64,000 nucleotides of DNA, taken from positions 1 to 64,000 of the forward strand of contig NZ_FOGR01000007.1 in assembly GCF_900111275.1 (NCBI RefSeq), given 5' to 3'. The notes under the pieces were generated by a model. The model was not told the origin of the DNA and ran no database searches. It was given only the letters and a program-made list of their open reading frames with translations. The translations under genes were made by a program, and so were the position numbers. Positions 16,835-26,710 of this stretch are shown in pieces. Each line of letters opens with the position of its first letter. The stretch's first letter is position 1. This DNA is from Rhizobium sp. NFR03 (lineage in GTDB: Bacteria; Pseudomonadota; Alphaproteobacteria; Rhizobiales; Rhizobiaceae).

Positions 16835-17710
16835 ATGTATTTGAGAACTATAGCAGGCATCGTTGCCACGACACTCTTTGCGCTGGCAGCCCCGGCGCAT
16901 GCGCAAGCCGTGAAGATCGGCAGCAAGAATTTCACCGAACAGTTCGTCGTCGCGGAAATCTATGCGCAGGCTCTTGAAAAAGCAGGCGTCGAAGTCGAAC
17001 GCCGTCTTAACCTCGGCGCGACCCTTGTCGCCCATACCGCTCTGACGAATGGCGAGATCGACCTCTATCCGGAATATACGGGCACAGCGCTCGCGGCTGT
17101 CGTCAAGGGAGACCTGTCGGGCAGCGCCGAGAAGATCTACGGCGAGGTCAAGGACTACTACGAGAAGAACCTGAAGCTCACGCTCCTTGAGCCGACCCGG
17201 ATCAACAACGGCTATGCGATCATCCTGCTCCCGGAGACGGCCGAGACATACAAGTTGAAGACCCTGACAGATCTCGGTCCGGTCTCCAAGGATCTGACCT
17301 TCGGCGCGGAGGCCGGCTTTGGCGACCGTAAGGACGGTCTGCCGGGTCTGAAGCAGACCTACGGTATCGCGTTCAAGGAGTTCAAGATCTTCGCGAAGCT
17401 CGGCATCCGCTACAGCGCGCTGGCCAGCAAGGATCTCGACGTTTCCTATGGTTTTGCGACGGACTGGCAGATTTCGGAAAACAAGCTCGTCGTTCTTGAA
17501 GACGACAAGAAGCTTTTCCCTCCCTACTATCTGGTGCCGGTCGTTCGTCAGGACACGCTTGCCAAAAACCCCAAGATCTCCGAGGTGCTGAACAAGATCA
17601 GTCCGCTTCTCAACAACGAGACCATGCGCGAGCTGAATGCCAAGGTCGATCGCGACAAGGAAGAGCCGGCGGATGTCGCTGCGGACTTTCTGAAGGCCCA
17701 AGGCATCTGA
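16835..17710 (+). CDS. betaine/choline-type ABC substrate-binding protein (OpuAC/OsmF family)
   Basis: The 291-aa periplasmic binding protein has a signal peptide (cleavage after AHA-Q near residue 24) and starts the mature chain with VKIGSKNFTEQFVVAEI, the diagnostic opening of OpuC/OsmF/YehZ-type receptors for quaternary amines. Other family segments are NGEIDLYPEYTGTAL, DVSYGFATDWQ, LFPPYYLVPVVR and LNAKVDRDKEEPADVAADFL. Such proteins bind trimethylammonium groups in an aromatic box. It is the first gene of a transporter-enzyme operon, so the ligand is probably a nutrient rather than only an osmoprotectant. Confidence 0.93.
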   Translation: MYLRTIAGIVATTLFALAAPAHAQAVKIGSKNFTEQFVVAEIYAQALEKAGVEVERRLNLGATLVAHTALTNGEIDLYPEYTGTALAAVVKGDLSGSAEKIYGEVKDYYEKNLKLTLLEPTRINNGYAIILLPETAETYKLKTLTDLGPVSKDLTFGAEAGFGDRKDGLPGLKQTYGIAFKEFKIFAKLGIRYSALASKDLDVSYGFATDWQISENKLVVLEDDKKLFPPYYLVPVVRQDTLAKNPKISEVLNKISPLLNNETMRELNAKVDRDKEEPADVAADFLKAQGI

Positions 17711-17825
17711 AAGCTCTTGATATAATTGTGCAGCGCGCAATTTGACATGACGATGCGGCCCGTCTTTGCTCTGCCGCATCGTCTGCGTCCATGCTCCTGA
17801 TCGCCTCAAGGAAAGCTCTGAATCG

Positions 17826-18443
17826 TTGAAGTGGGCTCCCAGACATATTCCCGAGATCGCGCTCGCCGTCTGGCAGCATCTTGTTCTGTCGATTTCCGCT
17901 GTTCTGATCGGCCTGGTCGTCGCACTCGTCATCGGCATATTCTGTGCGCGCCGCCAGAGGGTCTACGCCGTTGCCTTGACCATCGCCAACGTGATCTTCG
18001 TCATTCCGAGCCTGGCGCTCTTCGCGCTGCTCATTCCGCTTGTCGGCCTCGGCATGAAGCCCGCCTTGATCGGGCTCTCGTCATACTGTCTGCTGATCCT
18101 GTTGCGCAACATCGTGACCGGTCTGCGGGGCGTTCCGGCAGACGTGCTCGATGCTGCTGACGGCATGGGATATGGCCGCTGGCAACGATTGTTTCGCATT
18201 GAATTGCCACTCGCCGCACCGCTGATCCTGTCTGGTGCCCGCATCGCTCTCGTGACGACAATCGGGATTGCGACGGTCGCGGCCTTTATCGATGGCGGCG
18301 GGCTCGGCACGATCATCCTCATCGGTATCGACCAGGAATATCCGGAGAAAATCATGGTCGGCGGTATTCTGACAGCACTTCTTGCGATCTCCTTCGACCT
18401 GATCCTGACCCGCGCCGAACGGCTCCTGGTCCGGTGGCAATGA
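17826..18443 (+). CDS. betaine-type ABC permease (OpuC/OsmW family)
   Basis: The 205-aa membrane permease has about five helices and the EAA-like loop DAADGMGYGRWQRLFRIELPLAAPLI. It also has the typical segments VIFVIPSLALFALLIPLVGLG and AAFIDGGGLGTIILIG. No in-frame ATG fits. TTG at 17826, preceded by AAGGAAAG, gives the expected N-terminus (KWAPRHIPEIALAVWQHL). It forms the channel with the next permease. Confidence 0.9.
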   Translation: MKWAPRHIPEIALAVWQHLVLSISAVLIGLVVALVIGIFCARRQRVYAVALTIANVIFVIPSLALFALLIPLVGLGMKPALIGLSSYCLLILLRNIVTGLRGVPADVLDAADGMGYGRWQRLFRIELPLAAPLILSGARIALVTTIGIATVAAFIDGGGLGTIILIGIDQEYPEKIMVGGILTALLAISFDLILTRAERLLVRWQ

Positions 18444-18453
18444 AGGGATCGCA

Positions 18454-19095
18454 ATGCTGAACGATGCGGTTTCCTGGATCGCCAACAATCCCGACGTCTT
18501 CACGCGCGCGCTCGGCCAGCATCTGGTTATGTCCGGCGTGTCGCTCGCAATCGCGCTTGTTATCGCGCTGCCTCTGTCGGTTGCCATCGTCCATCACGGC
18601 CGCTTCGCATTCGGCGTCATCAATACAGTGAACGGTTTGCGCACGGTTCCCAGTCTGGCGATCCTCGCGATCATGATGCCGCTGCTCGGTATCGGACTGA
18701 TGCCGTCTATTGTGGCGCTGACAGTTCTTGCCCTGCCGCCGATCCTGCTCAACGCCTATATCGGTCTTCGGGATGTGGACCCGGACGCCGTCGAGGCGGC
18801 AATCGGCATGGGTATGAGCCGCAGTCAGGTGCTGCGCAAGATTCGCATTCCGCTCGCCGCACCGGCGATGTTTGCCGGTGCGCGTACCGCCGCCGTTCAG
18901 GTCCTGGCCGGCGCGACGCTTGCCCCGTTTATCGGTGGGGGCGGACTGGGCGATTTTATTGCAGGTGGCATCAGTATGATGGACATGTCGCGACTTCTCG
19001 TCGGCGCCGTGCCGATCGCCATTCTCGCTCTCGGAACCGAGTTCATTCTCGGCTTTACAGAGAAGAAACTCTTCGCAGAAAGAACAGCCGCATGA
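18454..19095 (+). CDS. betaine-type ABC permease, second subunit
   Basis: The 213-aa permease is homologous to the previous gene product: LRTVPSLAILAIMMPLLGIGLMP and the loop EAAIGMGMSRSQVLRKIRIPLAAPAM are the family marks. The glycine-rich FIGGGGLGDFIAGG is also typical. It starts 10 nt after the first permease and overlaps the ATPase gene by 4 nt. Two different permeases per system is the usual OpuC/OsmVWXY organisation. Confidence 0.92.
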   Translation: MLNDAVSWIANNPDVFTRALGQHLVMSGVSLAIALVIALPLSVAIVHHGRFAFGVINTVNGLRTVPSLAILAIMMPLLGIGLMPSIVALTVLALPPILLNAYIGLRDVDPDAVEAAIGMGMSRSQVLRKIRIPLAAPAMFAGARTAAVQVLAGATLAPFIGGGGLGDFIAGGISMMDMSRLLVGAVPIAILALGTEFILGFTEKKLFAERTAA

Positions 19096-20024
19096 TCCGC
19101 ATGGAGAACGTCACCAAGCATTATGCAGAAGCGGCGATGCCATCGGTCGAAAACCTGACCCTCGAGGTTCCCGAAGGATCGATTGTCGCATTGATCGGAC
19201 CTTCCGGCTGCGGCAAGACCACAACGATGCGAATGATCAATCGTCTGATCGAACCCACAGAGGGGCGTATCTTCGTCAACGGGGAGGACGTGACCCATGT
19301 CGACCCGGTGCAATTGCGCCGACACATCGGCTACGTCATCCAATCCGTCGGCCTCTTTCCCCATATGACGATCGCGGAAAATATCGCGGCCGTGCCGAAC
19401 CTGCTCGGGTGGGACAAAGCCCGTATCGACCGGCGTACGGCAGAGCTGCTCGATCTCGTCGGTCTCGATCCCAAGGACATGCTGAATCGTTACCCACGGC
19501 AGCTTTCGGGAGGCCAGCGCCAGCGTATCGGCGTCGCCCGTGCTCTGGCAGCGGACCCTGCAGTCCTTCTCATGGACGAGCCGTTCGGCGCCATCGACCC
19601 CATCGCCCGCGCGCGACTTCAGGATGAGTTTCGGCAGATCCTCAGCCGCGTCCGCAAGACAGTGGTCCTCGTGACACATGATCTCGATGAGGCAATCCGT
19701 CTCGGAGACCGTATCGCCATCATGCGCGATGGCCGGATCGTTCAATACGATACGCCTGATGCGATCCTGTCCCGCCCCGCAGACGATTTCGTCGCCAACT
19801 TTGTGGGTATAGATCGAGCGATCAAACGTCTCAGCCTGTTTTCGGTAGCGGATGCCGCACTTGCCGGGCTGCACGCCGGTGCAGCGTCCAGGGTCGCCGC
19901 ATCGGTGAACCTGCGCGATGCACTGTCGCTGATGGTTGCGGGCAATACAGACGTCCTTGCCGTGGCCGGCGAAGACGGCACCGTGACAGGCCATCTGACG
20001 CGCGAAGCGATCTTCTCGATCTGA
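19092..20024 (+). CDS. betaine-type ABC ATPase (OpuCA/OsmV family) with partial CBS region
   Basis: The 310-aa ATPase has Walker A GPSGCGKT, the QSVGLFPHMTIAENIA Q-loop region typical of OpuCA, signature SGGQRQR, Walker B VLLMDEPFGAIDP and switch VTHDLDEA. About 70 residues after the nucleotide-binding domain (VAASVNLRDALSLMVAGNTDVLAVAGEDGTVTGHLTREAI) resemble one CBS module; osmosensing OpuA-type ATPases usually have a tandem pair. A reduced CBS region fits a nutrient importer that is not gated by ionic strength. This last point is inference. Confidence 0.93.
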   Translation: MIRMENVTKHYAEAAMPSVENLTLEVPEGSIVALIGPSGCGKTTTMRMINRLIEPTEGRIFVNGEDVTHVDPVQLRRHIGYVIQSVGLFPHMTIAENIAAVPNLLGWDKARIDRRTAELLDLVGLDPKDMLNRYPRQLSGGQRQRIGVARALAADPAVLLMDEPFGAIDPIARARLQDEFRQILSRVRKTVVLVTHDLDEAIRLGDRIAIMRDGRIVQYDTPDAILSRPADDFVANFVGIDRAIKRLSLFSVADAALAGLHAGAASRVAASVNLRDALSLMVAGNTDVLAVAGEDGTVTGHLTREAIFSI

Positions 20025-20037
20025 CCGGAGAAAGCCG

Positions 20038-20781
20038 ATGTCCTTTTCCTACCGCTCTTGCGAGGTTCCGGCCGTGTTGATCGAGCCCACCCATCGTCGG
20101 ATCCGCCTTAAAGCGGGCGAAAGCATCATCGCCGACACGACCGGCGCGATCGCGATCTACGAGAATGGAGGGCATCCCGTCTACTACCTGCCAAAGAGCG
20201 ATTTCCTCGCCGGTGTGCTGTCGCCTTCCGGTAAGAGCGAGGCAAAGGCCCTGCTGGGGGAGAAGCAGGTTTTCGATCTGATGGGTGTCGGTGCCGCCAA
20301 AGCCTGGTCCTTCGACGGCAGTCCCATCGGGCACAGCGAGCTTGCAGACTTCGTGTCCGTCGAATGGCCGGCTGTGCGCTGGTTCGAAGAGGATGAGGAA
20401 ATCTTCCGGCATCCACGCAATGTCTACAAGCGGATCGACACGATCAGGAGCTCGCGCCTTGTCGAGGTTTTTCTGGATGGTCAATTGGTGGCGCGCACCA
20501 ATCGGGCTGTCTTCCTGTTCGAAACGGGGCTTATTCCCCGCTACTATTTCCCCGCCGAAGACGTCATCGGGGGACGCCTGATCGACAGCGATCTGACGAC
20601 CTATTGCCCCTACAAGGGCACGGCCTCCTACTTCCATTTCGAACTTGCTGGCGTGAGGCATGATGACATCGTCTGGTCCTATCCCGATCCTCTTGACGAG
20701 AGCCTGAAAGTCAGAGGGCTGATCTCGGTCTATAATGAAAAGATGGATGAGATTCGCGTCAGCACAGAGGCCCGGTCCTGA
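20038..20781 (+). CDS. DUF427-family protein (two tandem DUF427 units)
   Basis: The 247-aa soluble protein contains two copies of the DUF427 beta-fold. The second carries the family marks VEVFLDGQLVARTNRAVFLFETGLIPRYYFP, TYCPYKGTASYF and DIVWSYPDPL. The first is similar but weaker (IADTTGAIAIYENGGHPVYYLPKSDF). The family has no settled biochemical role. It lies 13 nt after the ATPase and shares its stop with the start of the next gene, so it is part of the same pathway. It may bind or process the imported compound. Confidence 0.85.
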   Translation: MSFSYRSCEVPAVLIEPTHRRIRLKAGESIIADTTGAIAIYENGGHPVYYLPKSDFLAGVLSPSGKSEAKALLGEKQVFDLMGVGAAKAWSFDGSPIGHSELADFVSVEWPAVRWFEEDEEIFRHPRNVYKRIDTIRSSRLVEVFLDGQLVARTNRAVFLFETGLIPRYYFPAEDVIGGRLIDSDLTTYCPYKGTASYFHFELAGVRHDDIVWSYPDPLDESLKVRGLISVYNEKMDEIRVSTEARS

Positions 20782-21854
20782 TGCTGCTCGGCTATGCGCT
20801 TTCTCCCTTCGGTCATAGATCGGATGCCTGGCGCCAAGCGCCGGACGATCGGCTTCTCGGCTTCGATGCGTTGCTGGAGCAGGTGTCTGCGGCCGATGCG
20901 GAGGGTCTGGCTTTCGTTCTGCTTGCGGACCGGCTCGGGCTTCGTCCGACCGACGACGTGTCCCCGACGGCGGTACCCTTTGAGCCGACATTGCTTGCCT
21001 CGGCGCTCGCGACCCGCGTCGGTCGGATCGGCATGATCGCGGCGGCAGCGACTACCCAGCACGAACCTTACAATCTAGCTCGCCGTTTTGCCTCGCTGGA
21101 CCTCATCAGCAAAGGGCGCGGGGGATGGCTGGTCCTGGCGGACGGCGGTCATCATGATCGCGATGTTGAATTTGTGGATGTCGTCACCGCGCTCTGGGAT
21201 AGTTTCGAGGATGACGCCTTCGTCTACGACAAGACAGCGGGTCGTTTCTTTGATCCGTTGAAAATGCATGTCGCACACCACAAGGGCGCGCATTTCACGG
21301 TCCGCGGCCCTCTGAACGTCAACCGCTCGCCGCAGGGCAGGCCGGTTTTGGCGCATCTGCTTGATGACGCCGATAGTGCGTTGGCCATCCGCACAGGGGA
21401 GCTGCTTTTGTTGCAGGCAAGATCGGCTGACGATCTGGTTGCGGCGGCAAAGCGCATCGGCAAGGCGATCAACGCAGCCGGCCGCAAGAGAGACGATATC
21501 CGTCTTGTCGCCAGCATCAGTCCGGTCATCTGCTCCGCTGGTCAGGGAGCGGAGAAGACATCGGCATTTTCCGACATCGACCAGACGGTCGAGCCGCCTT
21601 TCGCAGCCCGTCTGGCCGGTACGCCGTCGGCGATCGTCGAGCAGTTGAAGGACCTTGAGGCGACGGCCGACCTCGACGGCTTCACTGTCTTTCCGCCGAC
21701 GCTTGAAATGGGGCAGCGCTTCCTTTCGGAGGTCGTTCCGGAACTCAGGCGACAAGGCCTGATGGACGCCGGTTCTGGCACGACGCTTCGGGAGAGGCTT
21801 GGTCTTCCCCGGCAAGAGCATCCGTCTCTGGTCGGCAAGGAGGCGTCACGATGA
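20781..21854 (+). CDS. luciferase-like FMN-dependent monooxygenase (NtaA/SnaA/DszA family)
   Basis: The 357-aa bacterial-luciferase-type barrel uses reduced flavin supplied by a separate reductase. NtaA-family features are GHRSDAWRQ, TTQHEPYNLARRFASLDLISKGRGGWLV, DPLKMHVAHHKGAHFTVRGPLNVNRSPQGRPV and the closing FPPTLEMGQRFLSEVVPELRRQGL. Members cleave C-N or C-S bonds, for example of nitrilotriacetate or dibenzothiophene sulfone. It is shorter than typical members (about 440 aa): the insertion regions are trimmed. It is coupled by overlap to a second family member. The substrate is unknown. Confidence 0.88.
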   Translation: MLLGYALSPFGHRSDAWRQAPDDRLLGFDALLEQVSAADAEGLAFVLLADRLGLRPTDDVSPTAVPFEPTLLASALATRVGRIGMIAAAATTQHEPYNLARRFASLDLISKGRGGWLVLADGGHHDRDVEFVDVVTALWDSFEDDAFVYDKTAGRFFDPLKMHVAHHKGAHFTVRGPLNVNRSPQGRPVLAHLLDDADSALAIRTGELLLLQARSADDLVAAAKRIGKAINAAGRKRDDIRLVASISPVICSAGQGAEKTSAFSDIDQTVEPPFAARLAGTPSAIVEQLKDLEATADLDGFTVFPPTLEMGQRFLSEVVPELRRQGLMDAGSGTTLRERLGLPRQEHPSLVGKEASR

Positions 21855-23176
21855 GCAGACGTTCTATGAAGCTCGGCGCCTTTCTCATGGCAGGCGGTCA
21901 TCACATCGCGGCGTGGCGACATCCCGATGCGCATGCGCGGGCCGGTAGCGACATCGATCATTTCATAGCGCTGGCGCAGATCGCCGAACGCGGCACGTTC
22001 GACATGATCTTCATCGAGGATGCGGCCGCTATCCGCGAGCGCAATCCTGATCTCGCCAGCCAGGCCGCTCGCTCTACGGCCTTCGAACCGCTGAGCCTTC
22101 TCGCGGCAATCGCCGTCAACACGTCTCATATCGGGCTCGTCGCCACCGCCTCGACCAGTTACACCGAACCTTATGGTCTTGCCCGCAGCTTTGCGGCGCT
22201 CGACCAGCTCAGTGGTGGTCGTGCGGGTTGGAACCTCGTGACCTCCGCAAGCGAACTGGAGGCGGAGAATTTTGCAGCGAGCGGGTTGCGTCCACACTCG
22301 CAGCGTTACGAACGTGCCGAGGAATTTGCCGACGCGGCGCTCGCATTGTGGGACAGCGTGCAGCAGACAGCCTATCTGCCACCCGGCGAAGGGGTGTTCG
22401 CAGATCGGTCCAAGCTTCATCCTGTCCACAAGCATGGACGGCATTTTGCCGTAGACGGGATTCTCGAAAGTCGGCGCTCGCCTCAAGGGCGGCCGGTGAT
22501 GGTTCAGGCCGGCGCTTCGGAGGCAGGCAAGGATCTGGCGGCACGCACCGCAGACGTCGTGTTCGCAGCCTCGCAAACCAAGGCGGAAGCTCAGGCCTAT
22601 TACGTGGATGTGAAATCGAGGCTCGCCACATACGGGCGAGACCCTGACGATCTCAAGGTCATGCCGGGCATTTCTCCGATTGTCGCTGCCACCGAAGAGG
22701 AGGCAAAGGCGAAATACCGCACGCTCCAGGACCTCATCCCCGATGCCGTCGGCGTGGCGCTCCTTGCAAGTTATCTCAGCATCCAGGATCTTGCCGCCTA
22801 TCCGCTCGACGGCCCCTTGCCGGACATGCCCCCAACCAACCTGATCCAGAGCCGGCAGCAGTTGATCGTCGATCTCGGCAAGCGAGAGGGGCTTTCGATC
22901 AGGGAGCTGGCGAGACACTTTGCCGGTGCACGGGGCCATTGGCAGGTGGTCGGCACGCCCGGTCAGATCGCCGACGCCATGGAGGAGCGGTTCCTTGACG
23001 GCGCTGCCGACGGGTTCAACGTCATGGCACCCCTTTTTCCCTCGGGCCTTGAGGACTTCGTCACGCTGGTCGTGCCGGAACTGCGCCGCCGTGGGCTCTT
23101 CCGTACGGAATACGAGGGTAAGACGCTGCGGACAAATCTCGGCGCTGCCATGCCGACCAATGATGAAGCGAGATGA
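21851..23176 (+). CDS. FMN-dependent monooxygenase, NtaA/SnaA/DszA family
   Basis: The 441-aa full-length family member has GAFLMAGGHHIAAWRHPDA at the N-terminus, TSYTEPYGLARSFAALDQLSGGRAGWNLVTS in the flavin region and VHKHGRHFAVDGILESRRSPQGRPVMVQAGASEAG in the middle. The C-terminus, GFNVMAPLFPSGLEDFVTLVVPELRRRGLFRTEYEGKTLR, is diagnostic. It overlaps both neighbours by 4 nt. No flavin reductase gene is present in the operon, so FMNH2 would have to come from elsewhere. Two monooxygenases suggest two oxidation steps or a heterodimer. Confidence 0.92.
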   Translation: MSRRSMKLGAFLMAGGHHIAAWRHPDAHARAGSDIDHFIALAQIAERGTFDMIFIEDAAAIRERNPDLASQAARSTAFEPLSLLAAIAVNTSHIGLVATASTSYTEPYGLARSFAALDQLSGGRAGWNLVTSASELEAENFAASGLRPHSQRYERAEEFADAALALWDSVQQTAYLPPGEGVFADRSKLHPVHKHGRHFAVDGILESRRSPQGRPVMVQAGASEAGKDLAARTADVVFAASQTKAEAQAYYVDVKSRLATYGRDPDDLKVMPGISPIVAATEEEAKAKYRTLQDLIPDAVGVALLASYLSIQDLAAYPLDGPLPDMPPTNLIQSRQQLIVDLGKREGLSIRELARHFAGARGHWQVVGTPGQIADAMEERFLDGAADGFNVMAPLFPSGLEDFVTLVVPELRRRGLFRTEYEGKTLRTNLGAAMPTNDEAR

Positions 23177-24180
23177 CAATGGATCCGATCTATATCGACT
23201 ACCTGAACGCCTTCGATATCGAGGCGCTGGACCTCACCAATGACGAGATCCTTGGTGCCATCGAGACATCGCTCGGCGCGCAGGGCAATGGCGAGACGGT
23301 GATCGAGCCGCGCGTACATCTTGAGCCGGATGCGAGCTTCCACGGTCACTTCAATGTGCTGCGCGGCTATGTGGCACCACTCGGGTTGGCAGGCGTCAAG
23401 GTCGTCGGCGACTATGTCGACAATTACAAGCTCGGTTACCCCTCGGAATTCGGGGTGCTCAACCTCTTCGACCCGCGTACCGGCGTACCGAAGGCCATCC
23501 TCGACGCCACTGTCATCACCGACATGCGCACCGGTGCGGTGACGGCGATGGGCGCCAAGCATCTTGCCCGCAAGGGCTCGAAAGTCCTTGGCCATATCGG
23601 CGCCCGCGGCACGGCCTACTGGAACGTGCGGCTGCTCGACCATCTCTTCGATTTCGACGAGATCCGCGTTCACTCGCGCCGGCCGGAAAGCCGGGACGCT
23701 TTCGGTGCCAAACTCGAAAACGATCTTGGCAAGAAAATTACGGTGACCGACAACTGGCGAGACTGCGTCGATGGTGCGGACATCGTCGTCGAGGCATCGC
23801 GGCTCAACGCGCCGGAGCCGATGCTGAAGACGGAATGGATCAAGAAGGGCGCTTTCGTCGTGCCTTACGGGACGATGAGTGCCGTCGAGCTCTCGCTGAC
23901 CGACATCATAGATAAGCTGGTGGTGGATGATTGGGGGCAATGCAAGGGCGGCAAGCTTGGCTCGCTGCGTGCCCATGTCGAGGCCGGCAAGCTTTCAGAG
24001 GACACGCTGCATGCGGAGCTCGGCCAGATCGTCGCCGGCTTGAAGCCGGGTCGCGAGAGCGATGAGGAGACCATTCTTCTGTGGCATCGCGGGCTGTCGC
24101 TCAGCGACATCGCGCTCGGTTCGGCGCTGCTGGAGAAGGCGAAGGCCAGGAATATCGGACAGCGGCTCCGTTTCGCATGA
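23173..24180 (+). CDS. ornithine cyclodeaminase/mu-crystallin-family protein
   Basis: The 335-aa NAD(P)-dependent Rossmann-fold enzyme belongs to the family that includes ornithine cyclodeaminase, alanine dehydrogenase of archaea and ketimine reductases. Visible features are the substrate-side lysine segment GVKVVGDYVDN, the strand ILDATVITDMRTGAVTAMGAKHLAR, the nucleotide loop GHIGARGTAYWNVRLL and HSRRPESRDAF. It overlaps its neighbours by 4 nt. Within this operon a ketimine/imine reductase or amine dehydrogenase role is more plausible than proline formation; the substrate is not evident. Confidence 0.88.
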   Translation: MTMDPIYIDYLNAFDIEALDLTNDEILGAIETSLGAQGNGETVIEPRVHLEPDASFHGHFNVLRGYVAPLGLAGVKVVGDYVDNYKLGYPSEFGVLNLFDPRTGVPKAILDATVITDMRTGAVTAMGAKHLARKGSKVLGHIGARGTAYWNVRLLDHLFDFDEIRVHSRRPESRDAFGAKLENDLGKKITVTDNWRDCVDGADIVVEASRLNAPEPMLKTEWIKKGAFVVPYGTMSAVELSLTDIIDKLVVDDWGQCKGGKLGSLRAHVEAGKLSEDTLHAELGQIVAGLKPGRESDEETILLWHRGLSLSDIALGSALLEKAKARNIGQRLRFA

Positions 24181-25682
24181 CGACGATCTGCCTGACAGGG
24201 TCGGAGGTCACGATCGCGGATATCGTTGCGATTGCAAGGCAACGCGCTGAAGTGAGCGCCGACGAGCGGGTGATTGCCAGGCTGGTGGAGGCGCGGCTCG
24301 TTCTTGAAAACGTGGCTGCTTCCGGCCAGCCGATCTACGGAATGAACACCGGCCTCGGCGCCAATCTGAAGACCGCCGTTACGGAGGATTTCGCCGCCTT
24401 TCAGGTTCAGTTGATCCGGGGCAGGGGAATGGCCGTCGGCGAACCGATGCCACGCGACGCCACCCGCGCCGTCGTTGCCGCACGGCTCGCAATGCTCGCT
24501 GTCGGGGGGTCTGGCATCTCGCCTGCTGTCTTCCAGGCACTGCTTGGTCTTCTCAACGCCGGCGTGCATCCCGTCATGCGCTCTGTGGGTTCCATCGGCG
24601 CTGGCGACCTCGTGCTTCTCTCGGCAATGGCGCGGGTCCTGATCGGCGAGGGGGAGGCGGAATATCAGGGCGAGATCCTCCCTTCTCTTGTGGCGCTCGC
24701 TCGCGCCGGTCTTGCCCCGACGGTCCTCCAGCCCAAGGATGGCATTGCCCTTCTCAACGCCTCTGCGGTTTCGGTGGGCGAGGGTGCTTTGGTTCTCCAC
24801 GACCTCAGGCGGCTTCTTGGCTGGCAAAGGCAGGCAGTGGCGCTCTGCTTCGAAGCACTGGCGGGCAATCCGGCCATCCTGGCTCCCGCGATCCAGGCGG
24901 CGCGGCCGGCAGCCGGACAGGTCGAAGAGGCAAGCTTGATCCGTGCGGCGTTGCAGGGCTCGTCGCTGTATGAGGGCGGTGTGTCCATACAGGACCCGCT
25001 GAGCCTGCGATGCGTGGCGCCGATCCACGGCGCACTTGCCGACGCGCTGGCGCACGCCGAGCGCGCGGTCGAACTCGAACTCAATTCCGCTGCCGACAAC
25101 CCGCTGGTGCTCGTTGCGGAAAGACGCGTGCTCTCGACAGGTAATTTTCATACGCCGGCGCTCTCGCTGGCATTCGAGAGCCTCGGACTGGCGCTTGCCC
25201 AGGCCGCGGCGGCCTCGGCCGCCCGGTTCATACAATTGACCGGCTCCCGTCGTCATGGCCTGCCTCGCTATCTGTCTCCAGCGGGTGGAGCGTCCGCAGG
25301 TCTGGTCCCGATGCAGAAGACGGTGACGGCCCTGCTGGCTGCCATTCGCCACAAGGCCAATCCTGTTATGCTAGATTTTCTTGCCGTTTCCGAGGGCGTC
25401 GAGGACCATGCGACCCAATCGCTTCTTACCGTCCGCAAGCTCGGCGAGATGCTGTCCTCGTGGCGCCTGCTGATCGCCTGCGAGATGGTGGCGGCAGCAC
25501 AGGCCGTCGAGATGCGGCAGGAGCATCGTTGCGGGGCCGGCACGCAAATGATCCATGACATGATCCGAGCCAAGGTTCCTGCCCTACAGGAGGACCGCTC
25601 GCTCGGCGAAGATGTTGCGGTTCTGGCAAGTCATCTGGAGCTGTGTGAGGACAGCTGGGACAGGCGCTCAGAATTGCGCTGA
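24177..25682 (+). CDS. histidine ammonia-lyase homologue lacking the MIO-forming triad
   Basis: The 501-aa protein has the HAL/PAL fold throughout: YGMNTGLGANL with the conserved Tyr at about 54, ALLNASAVS with the Asn, QDPLSLRC, and VEDHAT near residue 410. In MIO enzymes an Ala-Ser-Gly triad (GSVGASGDL) cyclises to the electrophilic cofactor. Here the segment is GSIGAGDL (about 138-145): one residue shorter, with no Ser between Ala and Gly. The catalytic Tyr of the QDPYSLRC motif is Leu (about 275). A normal MIO lyase reaction is therefore unlikely. Ergothionase, which eliminates trimethylamine from ergothioneine, is a known HAL relative without MIO, and this gene ends a betaine-importer operon. 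The proposed role is elimination of an amine from a betaine. Confidence 0.9.
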   Translation: MTTICLTGSEVTIADIVAIARQRAEVSADERVIARLVEARLVLENVAASGQPIYGMNTGLGANLKTAVTEDFAAFQVQLIRGRGMAVGEPMPRDATRAVVAARLAMLAVGGSGISPAVFQALLGLLNAGVHPVMRSVGSIGAGDLVLLSAMARVLIGEGEAEYQGEILPSLVALARAGLAPTVLQPKDGIALLNASAVSVGEGALVLHDLRRLLGWQRQAVALCFEALAGNPAILAPAIQAARPAAGQVEEASLIRAALQGSSLYEGGVSIQDPLSLRCVAPIHGALADALAHAERAVELELNSAADNPLVLVAERRVLSTGNFHTPALSLAFESLGLALAQAAAASAARFIQLTGSRRHGLPRYLSPAGGASAGLVPMQKTVTALLAAIRHKANPVMLDFLAVSEGVEDHATQSLLTVRKLGEMLSSWRLLIACEMVAAAQAVEMRQEHRCGAGTQMIHDMIRAKVPALQEDRSLGEDVAVLASHLELCEDSWDRRSELR

Positions 25683-25969
25683 CATCGGGCAGGTCGGTGC
25701 CGCTCCGAACGATAAAGGCCGGCTCCTGAAAGGGACCAGCCGAGCCGGTGATGCCGGCATCAGCTTTATTGCGATTGATCCTTGTATTCCGTTTTGCGCT
25801 TACCCAAATAGGTTTTGCGGACCGGGCCCCTCTGATCAAGGCGAATGCCTTTTTGATGTCGGACCGCATCGAGCGTGCTCGGTGCGATCTTATGGCCAAT
25901 CGTAAGCTCCCCAAACATGTTCGATGTCGTGAACCAGACGCACTTCGCGTCGTTTTGGAGAGTTTTCTT
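25683..25969. other. intergenic region between the lyase and carbonic anhydrase genes
   Basis: No gene is supported. A perfect 14-bp palindrome (TGATGCC/GGCATCA) at 25749-25762 may belong to the end of the upstream operon. The stretch 25860-25960 should carry the promoter of the carbonic anhydrase gene. Confidence 0.45.
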
Positions 25970-26710
25970 ATGTGTAACGTTTCTCGTCGCCTTTTCCTGA
26001 CAGCCACGGCCGCTTCTGCCGCCATTGCGCTGCCGGCCTCGCTTCATGCCGAGGAGGCTGGCGCGTCTGCCGTGCCCCTGGCACCCGCGCCCGTCAAGGA
26101 TGGAAAGTCTACGCTGACGCCGGATGAGGCACTGGATCTGCTGAAACAGGGGAACGAGGCCTTTCTGCGAAACGAACTGGTTTACCCCAACAGGACGGAG
26201 ACGCGCCGGCTGGAACTCGCCAAGGGCCAGGCCCCGTTCTGCGCCTATGTTTCATGTTCCGACAGCCGTGTTCCTCCTGAACTGCTGTTCGGACGAGGCT
26301 TGGGTGAGCTCTTCATCATCCGCAACGCCGGCAATACCGTGGATACCGTCGCCATGGGATCGATCGAATACGCCGTTGCCGAACTCGGGGTTCCTCTGAT
26401 CGTCGTCATGGGACATGAGAGCTGCGGTGCCGTGAAGGCAGCAATGGCTGTCGTGGAGAGCAATGCCCGCTTTCCCGGGCAGATCGACAACATGATCGAG
26501 CCAATCATCCCGGCCGTTCTTGAAGCACGTGGGCAAACGGGCGACCCGACCGAGAACGCCGTGCGTCAAAACGTTCGCCGTGTCGTACGTACCTTGCGGG
26601 AAGAAAGCGACCCGCTCCTGCTCAAGCCTCTGGCGGAGGGCCGTATCAAGGTCGTCGGCGCCTATTACCGCCTCGACACCGGCGTTGTGGAATTCTTCGA
26701 CCAGCAGTGA
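25970..26710 (+). CDS. exported beta-class carbonic anhydrase
   Basis: The 246-aa enzyme interconverts CO2 and bicarbonate. Zinc ligands and the Asp-Arg pair are present: SCSDSRVPPE (Cys, Asp, Arg) and GHESCGAV (His, Cys). Family segments are LLFGRGLGELFIIRNAGN and MGSIEYAVAELGVPLIVVMGH. The N-terminus CNVSRRLFLTATAASAAIALPASLHAEE has twin arginines, a hydrophobic core and an Ala-x-Ala site, so export by Tat as a folded zinc protein is likely. The ATG at 25970 is chosen because it places this signal at the N-terminus. Periplasmic beta enzymes are less common than cytoplasmic ones. It is monocistronic. Confidence 0.92.
   Translation: MCNVSRRLFLTATAASAAIALPASLHAEEAGASAVPLAPAPVKDGKSTLTPDEALDLLKQGNEAFLRNELVYPNRTETRRLELAKGQAPFCAYVSCSDSRVPPELLFGRGLGELFIIRNAGNTVDTVAMGSIEYAVAELGVPLIVVMGHESCGAVKAAMAVVESNARFPGQIDNMIEPIIPAVLEARGQTGDPTENAVRQNVRRVVRTLREESDPLLLKPLAEGRIKVVGAYYRLDTGVVEFFDQQ

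Follow-up and report, generated by a model that had tools for sequence, protein, structure and literature searches.

A MIO-less lyase and an ornithine cyclodeaminase-family protein in a Rhizobium operon: a candidate route for catabolism of a C2-sulfur histidine betaine

Ergothionase, the ergothioneine trimethylamine-lyase, is represented by the enzymes of Treponema denticola (PDB 6s7j/6s7q) and Burkholderia sp. HME13, and Yan, Huang and Zhang (ACS Catal. 2022) have reportedly described, as their title has it, a bacterial ergothioneine sulfonate catabolic pathway, in Agrobacterium radiobacter. In its passage on ergothionase in A. radiobacter, PMC13405746 cites Yan et al. 2022. In the binding protein of the ergothioneine ABC transporter EgtU, Gly244 and Phe293 stand at the positions of a Phe and a Tyr in ProX, as given in the portion of PMC9732360 dealing with these residues, and the flavoenzyme pair CmoO/CmoJ cleaves C-S bonds, according to the corresponding part of PMC10863075. 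Here, we analyse an operon at positions 16835-25682 of a 64,000-nucleotide (nt) stretch of Rhizobium sp. NFR03 (contig NZ_FOGR01000007.1, positions 1 to 64,000; hereafter the window). Profile matches bear out the gene families proposed in the initial annotation, namely an importer of four genes (a periplasmic binding protein, SBP; permeases PermA and PermB; an ATPase), a DUF427 protein, two flavin mononucleotide (FMN)-dependent monooxygenases (LLM1 and LLM2), a member of the ornithine cyclodeaminase (OCD) family and a lyase with the fold of histidine ammonia-lyase (HAL). The operon is confirmed in its families, coupling and coordinates. From these genes and their relatives, we infer, with a probability of about 0.5, that the operon catabolises a C2-sulfur histidine betaine, either ergothioneine or, more likely, ergothioneine sulfonate, through uptake, loss of trimethylamine, removal of the sulfur and delivery of urocanate to the hut pathway.

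The lyase (24177..25682, + strand; PF00221, 442.7 bits) is of particular interest, and we predict that it is a trimethylamine-lyase of the ergothionase clade. In loop alignment the Ala-Ser-Gly tripeptide, from which MIO-dependent HAL forms its 4-methylidene-imidazol-5-one (MIO) cofactor, was not found in the window lyase: the loop reads GSIGA-GDL (GSIGAGD), one residue short of the GSVGASGDL of the HutH from the same genome, and the gap is spaced exactly as in the SSIGE-GDI of ergothionase. Its best PDB match by sequence is ergothionase (260.6 bits), followed by an entry at 234.5 bits, with the Pseudomonas putida HAL at 206.8. Lys381, part of a QKT motif, is present in all 30 of the MIO-less lyases aligned (drawn from the 48 open reading frames (ORFs) listed) and is common to ergothionase, and Val occupies this position in the four canonical HALs compared; we take the Lys to be catalytic in ergothionase-type lyases. 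Leu275 is likewise Leu in ergothionase and Tyr in the four HALs, and it is hydrophobic rather than invariant among the 30 MIO-less lyases (one Val, two Ile). In a tree of 41 rows, these 30 lyases and ergothionase split from the 10 HAL-type rows with an SH-aLRT (Shimodaira-Hasegawa-like approximate likelihood ratio test) value of 100, which stayed at 99 once the columns of the MIO loop and the Lys had been removed; the tree is a quick search with no bootstrap, in which ergothionase forms a long branch. The evidence therefore supports placing the lyase on the ergothionase side of the family, not with HAL, and both the inability to form MIO and the kinship with ergothionase stand as first suggested. 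Within that side, the sister of ergothionase is a Polaromonas lyase (locus L118), and the window lyase falls in a separate subclade. The GLNRGVGxNKD loop of ergothionase and the Polaromonas lyase is not present in the window lyase, which reads GMNTGLGANLK at this place, and this argues against its being an ergothionase in the strict sense. The genome holds three PF00221 proteins in all: the canonical HutH, the operon lyase and a third variant. This third protein (G000:C14:261852-263246; L002, L187:5757-7274) reads GSAGY---L at the MIO site and carries Tyr where the QKT motif has its Lys; in the tree it joins L182:15478 on the HAL side, and it may represent a further MIO-less type.

The gene that overlaps the start of the lyase gene (23173..24180, +; PF02423, 183.3 bits) encodes a reductase of the OCD/mu-crystallin family belonging to a tight subfamily. 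Its residues S168 R169 R170, which follow the second Rossmann strand, are invariant in a set of 32 sequences whose identities go as low as 64%, and alanine dehydrogenase carries Asp at the position of S168. In Rossmann folds, a motif of this type points to NADP(H), which suggests that the OCD protein uses NADP(H) and hence may play a reductive role. SbnB is among its nearest relatives with a structure.

The association of this protein with the lyase is close. We fetched 80 close relative loci (our L034-L113) using the lyase, and only the OCD association is informative in them; in every one, the OCD and lyase genes are neighbours in the same orientation, fewer than 60 nt apart, with identities of 57-83% for the lyase and 76-96% for the OCD protein. 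Twenty-four of these loci (L034-L057) are titled mostly Rhizobium, Neorhizobium and Phyllobacterium: nine carry all nine genes, 13 miss only the DUF427 gene (which is thus accessory, being kept in 9 of 24), L042 is cut by a contig end and L051 holds the pair alone. The other 56 (L058-L113, nearly all titled Mesorhizobium) keep only the pair, with no SBP or LLM2 homologue above 40% identity in any of them, so the OCD-lyase pair is the conserved core, and the importer and the FMN enzymes are present in some loci and absent from others. The conservation anticipated for the full gene set is therefore seen in the first group, where 22 of 24 loci retain the eight- or nine-gene order, but not in the second. 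The LLM genes, missing from all 56 at the same threshold, are ruled out as the core of the pathway. The idea that the DUF427 protein and the PhnD-like protein of related modules are mutually exclusive substitutes was also discarded, both being present in L034 and L037. When unlabelled neighbouring ORFs were clustered, most of what emerged were shadow ORFs, and the only leads were an MFS transporter and a PanB-like gene. The latter (PF02548) lies near the lyase gene on the opposite strand in 49 of the 56 loci, within 4 kb in 48 (e.g. L058:11489-12322), and a 36%-identical gene is found near the lyase of Rhodobacteraceae M382 (L122:15894-16727).

Among 294 sampled genomes of the window's family, 28 have the OCD subfamily (E<=1e-90). 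The lyase is verified as MIO-less in 26 of these, and such a lyase lies next to the OCD gene in the remaining pair, G114 and G184; OCD and MIO-less lyase lie within 1.2 kb of each other in 27 of the 28, the exception being G133, and within 100 nt in 25. Conversely, a verified MIO-less lyase is found in 28 genomes, of which all except G106 and G213 have the OCD. Four other sampled genomes of the window's genus are without it, and the distribution of the operon is therefore patchy. The subfamily occurs in 11 of 398 genomes of a phylum sample and in 84 plasmid records, 81 of them at 60-80% identity, and it extends to Beta- and Actinobacteria.

The nine ORFs are all open, on the + strand and in the order first described. 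The gaps after PermB, the ATPase, DUF427, LLM1, LLM2 and OCD are -4, +13, -1, -4, -4 and -4 nt, respectively, so that six successive junctions either overlap or leave no more than 13 nt, in line with the tight coupling that had been noted for the last seven genes. PermA and PermB are 10 nt apart, and the SBP-PermA gap is 55 nt when measured from the start of the longest ORF; because the annotated PermA homologue is 618 nt long, the true start of PermA is likely the in-frame TTG at 17826. The importer consists of SBP (16835..17710; OpuAC family, ProX/OsmF-like, PF04069, 230.6 bits), PermA (17766..18443, PF00528), PermB (18454..19095, PF00528) and a ProV-type ABC ATPase (19092..20024; PF00005, and TIGR01186 at 333.5 bits against a cut-off of 326.6). 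SBP has the OpuAC domain of the OpuAC/ProX-type quaternary-amine binding proteins and keeps the cage-type motifs; its nearest PDB entries are nicotine and acetylcholine sensors derived from OpuBC, then ProX and EgtUC. An importer of the quaternary-amine family, as originally proposed, is what these matches indicate. No EgtD-family match was found in the window's genome, in a search whose control was weak (of 14 genomes, it matched only E. coli and Methanosarcina), and the compound would therefore need to be imported.

The importer genes are followed by those for a tandem DUF427 protein (20038..20781; PF04248 in two stretches) and the two monooxygenases. LLM1 (20781..21854) is the shorter and faster evolving (PF00296; TIGR03860 at 230.8 bits, under the cut-off of 279.7), and nitrilotriacetate monooxygenase, YtnJ/MoxC and DszA are its nearest relatives in the PDB. 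LLM2 (21851..23176) belongs to the NtaA/DmoA family (TIGR03860, 532.5 bits, over the same cut-off) and is nearest to 7e36_B and YtnJ/MoxC, with DszA also among its relatives; YtnJ is presumably CmoJ. Beyond the lyase, at 25748-26710, lies a gene that is carbonic anhydrase-like as judged by eye.

Wider loci, comprising 15 plasmid regions (L114-L128) and 20 genome stretches, place the OCD gene in other company. In Polaromonas L118, genes for LysR, YeiH, an ergothionase-type lyase (scoring 342 bits against ergothionase and 175.8 against the next match), TctC, OCD and a PhnD-like protein stand together. Loci of the R. leguminosarum type (L116, L117, L175) combine LysR, YeiH, a CoA-transferase, SDR, MaoC, a HutC-like gene, the lyase, an OpuAC protein, OCD, a PhnD-like protein and ABC genes. 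In R. johnstonii 3841 pRL12 and relatives, the CoA-transferase, SDR and MaoC genes (L116:8018-11216) lie upstream of the lyase gene and suggest a CoA-dependent branch. In L182, the lyase, an OpuAC protein, OCD, a PhnD-like protein and ABC genes are beside HutG-, HutI- and HutU-like genes, and OCD is beside or among hut genes in L121, L181 and L174 as well, and about 8 kb from them in L168. Among the 112 OCD loci that span 9 kb or more, YeiH is found in 6, from four lineages (L116/L117/L175, L118, L164 and, about 9 kb off, L120); in the first three of these lineages its neighbour is a LysR gene. In Salmonella, sulfite resistance requires YeiH, which is under the control of YeiE, a LysR-type regulator encoded next to it, as stated in the section of PMC12880088 on these genes. 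As to the PhnD-like protein, the copy in L116 has no obvious signal peptide by eye, and a 62% relative is encoded in the window's genome (L185:8074-8904; G000:C15:1054103-1054873), in an island with genes of the SfnB, O-acetylhomoserine sulfhydrylase and SsuA families.

In the pathway that we favour, the OpuAC-type importer would take up a trimethylammonium compound, and the MIO-less lyase would eliminate trimethylamine from it by means of the acid-base residues common to ergothionase, yielding 2-thio- or 2-sulfo-urocanate. The recurrence of the OCD protein in hut clusters suggests an imidazole substrate, and from YeiH and the C-S-type flavoenzymes one may suspect that a sulfur group leaves as sulfite; together with the reductive motif, these hints lead to the proposal that the NADPH-type OCD protein, encoded by the overlapping gene, would reductively remove the C2 sulfur of the lyase product as sulfite to give urocanate. 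The urocanate could then enter the ordinary hut pathway of the genome, whose HutH and HutU are encoded elsewhere. LLM1 and LLM2 would oxidise the thiol or thione as far as the sulfonate, or else would split other C-S forms, as judged from their C-S-acting relatives. The initial annotation pointed correctly to a lack of urocanate hydratase in the operon and took it as a sign of a new route. This argument was set aside and is weak evidence at best, since the only urocanase of the genome adjoins its own HutH outside the operon, and related modules elsewhere are located in or close to hut clusters. The broader idea of aromatic-betaine breakdown fits the quaternary-amine importer and the ergothionase-like lyase, but the evidence appears to favour a C2-sulfur histidine betaine over just any aromatic betaine. 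We offer only tentatively, and think rather unlikely to hold in full, the further proposal that the OCD protein is an undescribed NADPH-dependent reductive desulfonase, delivering hydride to the C2 position of the 2-sulfo-imidazole that the lyase would produce and expelling sulfite to leave urocanate, and that the OCD-lyase pair is a portable, cross-phylum module for tapping ergothioneine-derived sulfonates.

Several observations weigh against catabolism of a C2-sulfur histidine betaine. SBP carries GSKNF and EYTGT, with the Phe and Tyr of ProX in place of the Gly244 and Phe293 of EgtU (positions placed by motif, not by structural alignment), and both motifs occur in 25 of 25 module SBP homologues above 50% identity; the pocket motifs match a ProX-like glycine-betaine pocket and would lower the standing of ergothioneine itself as the ligand, with the sulfonate, hercynine or other betaines remaining. 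Ergothionase tops the fold comparison, at about 31% identity to the window lyase, but the comparison barely separates it from HALs (template modelling score 0.89 versus 0.88-0.90). The predicted structure of the OCD protein was too poor for pocket analysis (pLDDT, the predicted local distance difference test score, 44.0). The OCD gene and a PhnD-like gene lie inside a hut operon with canonical HAL in L121 and L181, OCD, PhnD-like, TctC and canonical HAL genes occur together in L123 (Rhodococcus), all three with no MIO-less lyase nearby, and comparison with the reference set found neither a canonical HAL nor a MIO-less lyase with the OCD in L125, L169, L170 and L180. The OCD substrate thus need not come from a MIO-less lyase, and the canonical-HAL clusters do not fit neatly with desulfonation. 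Neither do the CoA-transferase, SDR and MaoC genes, which would be superfluous on a route through urocanate. YeiH was not seen near OCD in 106 of the 112 loci, nor was it found in the window's own genome.

Other substrates have to be weighed against this background. If the compound were hercynine (histidine betaine) or a different histidine betaine free of sulfur, urocanate would be the immediate product of the lyase, and the OCD and FMN enzymes would have some other target, for example the amine. The importer family, the hut linkage and the ProX-like rather than EgtU-like pocket would all suit such a substrate, but a tightly coupled OCD gene would be left without a task, with YeiH and the C-S-type monooxygenases unexplained, and we consider it improbable. 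We give equally low credence to a non-histidine aromatic betaine such as tryptophan betaine, which the lyase would convert to an aryl-acrylate, shortened via CoA esters in some relatives. Many hosts are legume symbionts, and the CoA-transferase, SDR and MaoC genes upstream of a 43%-identical lyase in L116, L117, L127 and L175 would suit this role; against it, the window-type loci that were compared with the reference set lack them, hut clusters repeatedly include the OCD subfamily, and Lys381 is common to the lyase and ergothionase.

The kinship of the OCD protein with SbnB, and its occurrence with canonical HAL, raise the slim prospect that the lyase expels some other good leaving group from an N-substituted histidine and that the OCD protein cleaves a secondary amine in the manner of SbnB. 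An importer family that binds quaternary amines, a lyase that clusters with a trimethylamine-lyase and an NADP-type motif indicative of reduction all speak against it. That an osmoprotectant importer has come to lie beside unrelated enzymes by chance is hardly credible: the ProX-like pocket motifs would agree with it, but not a gene order kept in 22 of 24 loci or six consecutive junctions that overlap or span at most 13 nt.

If catabolism of a C2-sulfur histidine betaine is borne out, the operon would provide a soil route for ergothioneine-derived compounds that can be put to the test, and it would assign a function to a conserved OCD subfamily. In the annotated plasmid records looked at, lyases of the window clade are called histidine ammonia-lyase, a name that would conceal predicted trimethylamine-releasing enzymes of plant-associated bacteria, and the OCD-lyase module at present goes under histidine ammonia-lyase and ornithine cyclodeaminase.

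Compared with known systems, the window lyase shares with ergothionase the HAL fold, the MIO tripeptide short by one residue, the QKT Lys, Leu for the Tyr of HAL and the same side of the tree, but differs in its sequence (about 31% identity), its loop, its separate subclade and the coupling of its gene to that for OCD; the operon also has no thiourocanate-hydratase-like gene. Canonical Hut has the same lyase fold, and related modules lie inside the hut clusters of other genomes, whereas the window operon lacks MIO and adds a quaternary-amine importer, OCD and FMN enzymes. EgtU and SBP belong to the same family of binding proteins, SBP being without the Phe293 and Gly244 determinants. As in CmoO/CmoJ salvage of S-alkyl-cysteine, where two FMN enzymes act sequentially on a C-S bond, the operon encodes two such enzymes, LLM2 being close to YtnJ/MoxC, but here they are paired with a lyase, an OCD protein and an importer. 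The pathway of Yan et al., known to us by title and citation, acts, by its title, on the compound favoured here, and the window operon could be that pathway or a variant of it. As far as we have seen, what is new in the operon is the OCD coupling together with the FMN enzymes, the lyase itself being a member of the ergothionase side of its family.

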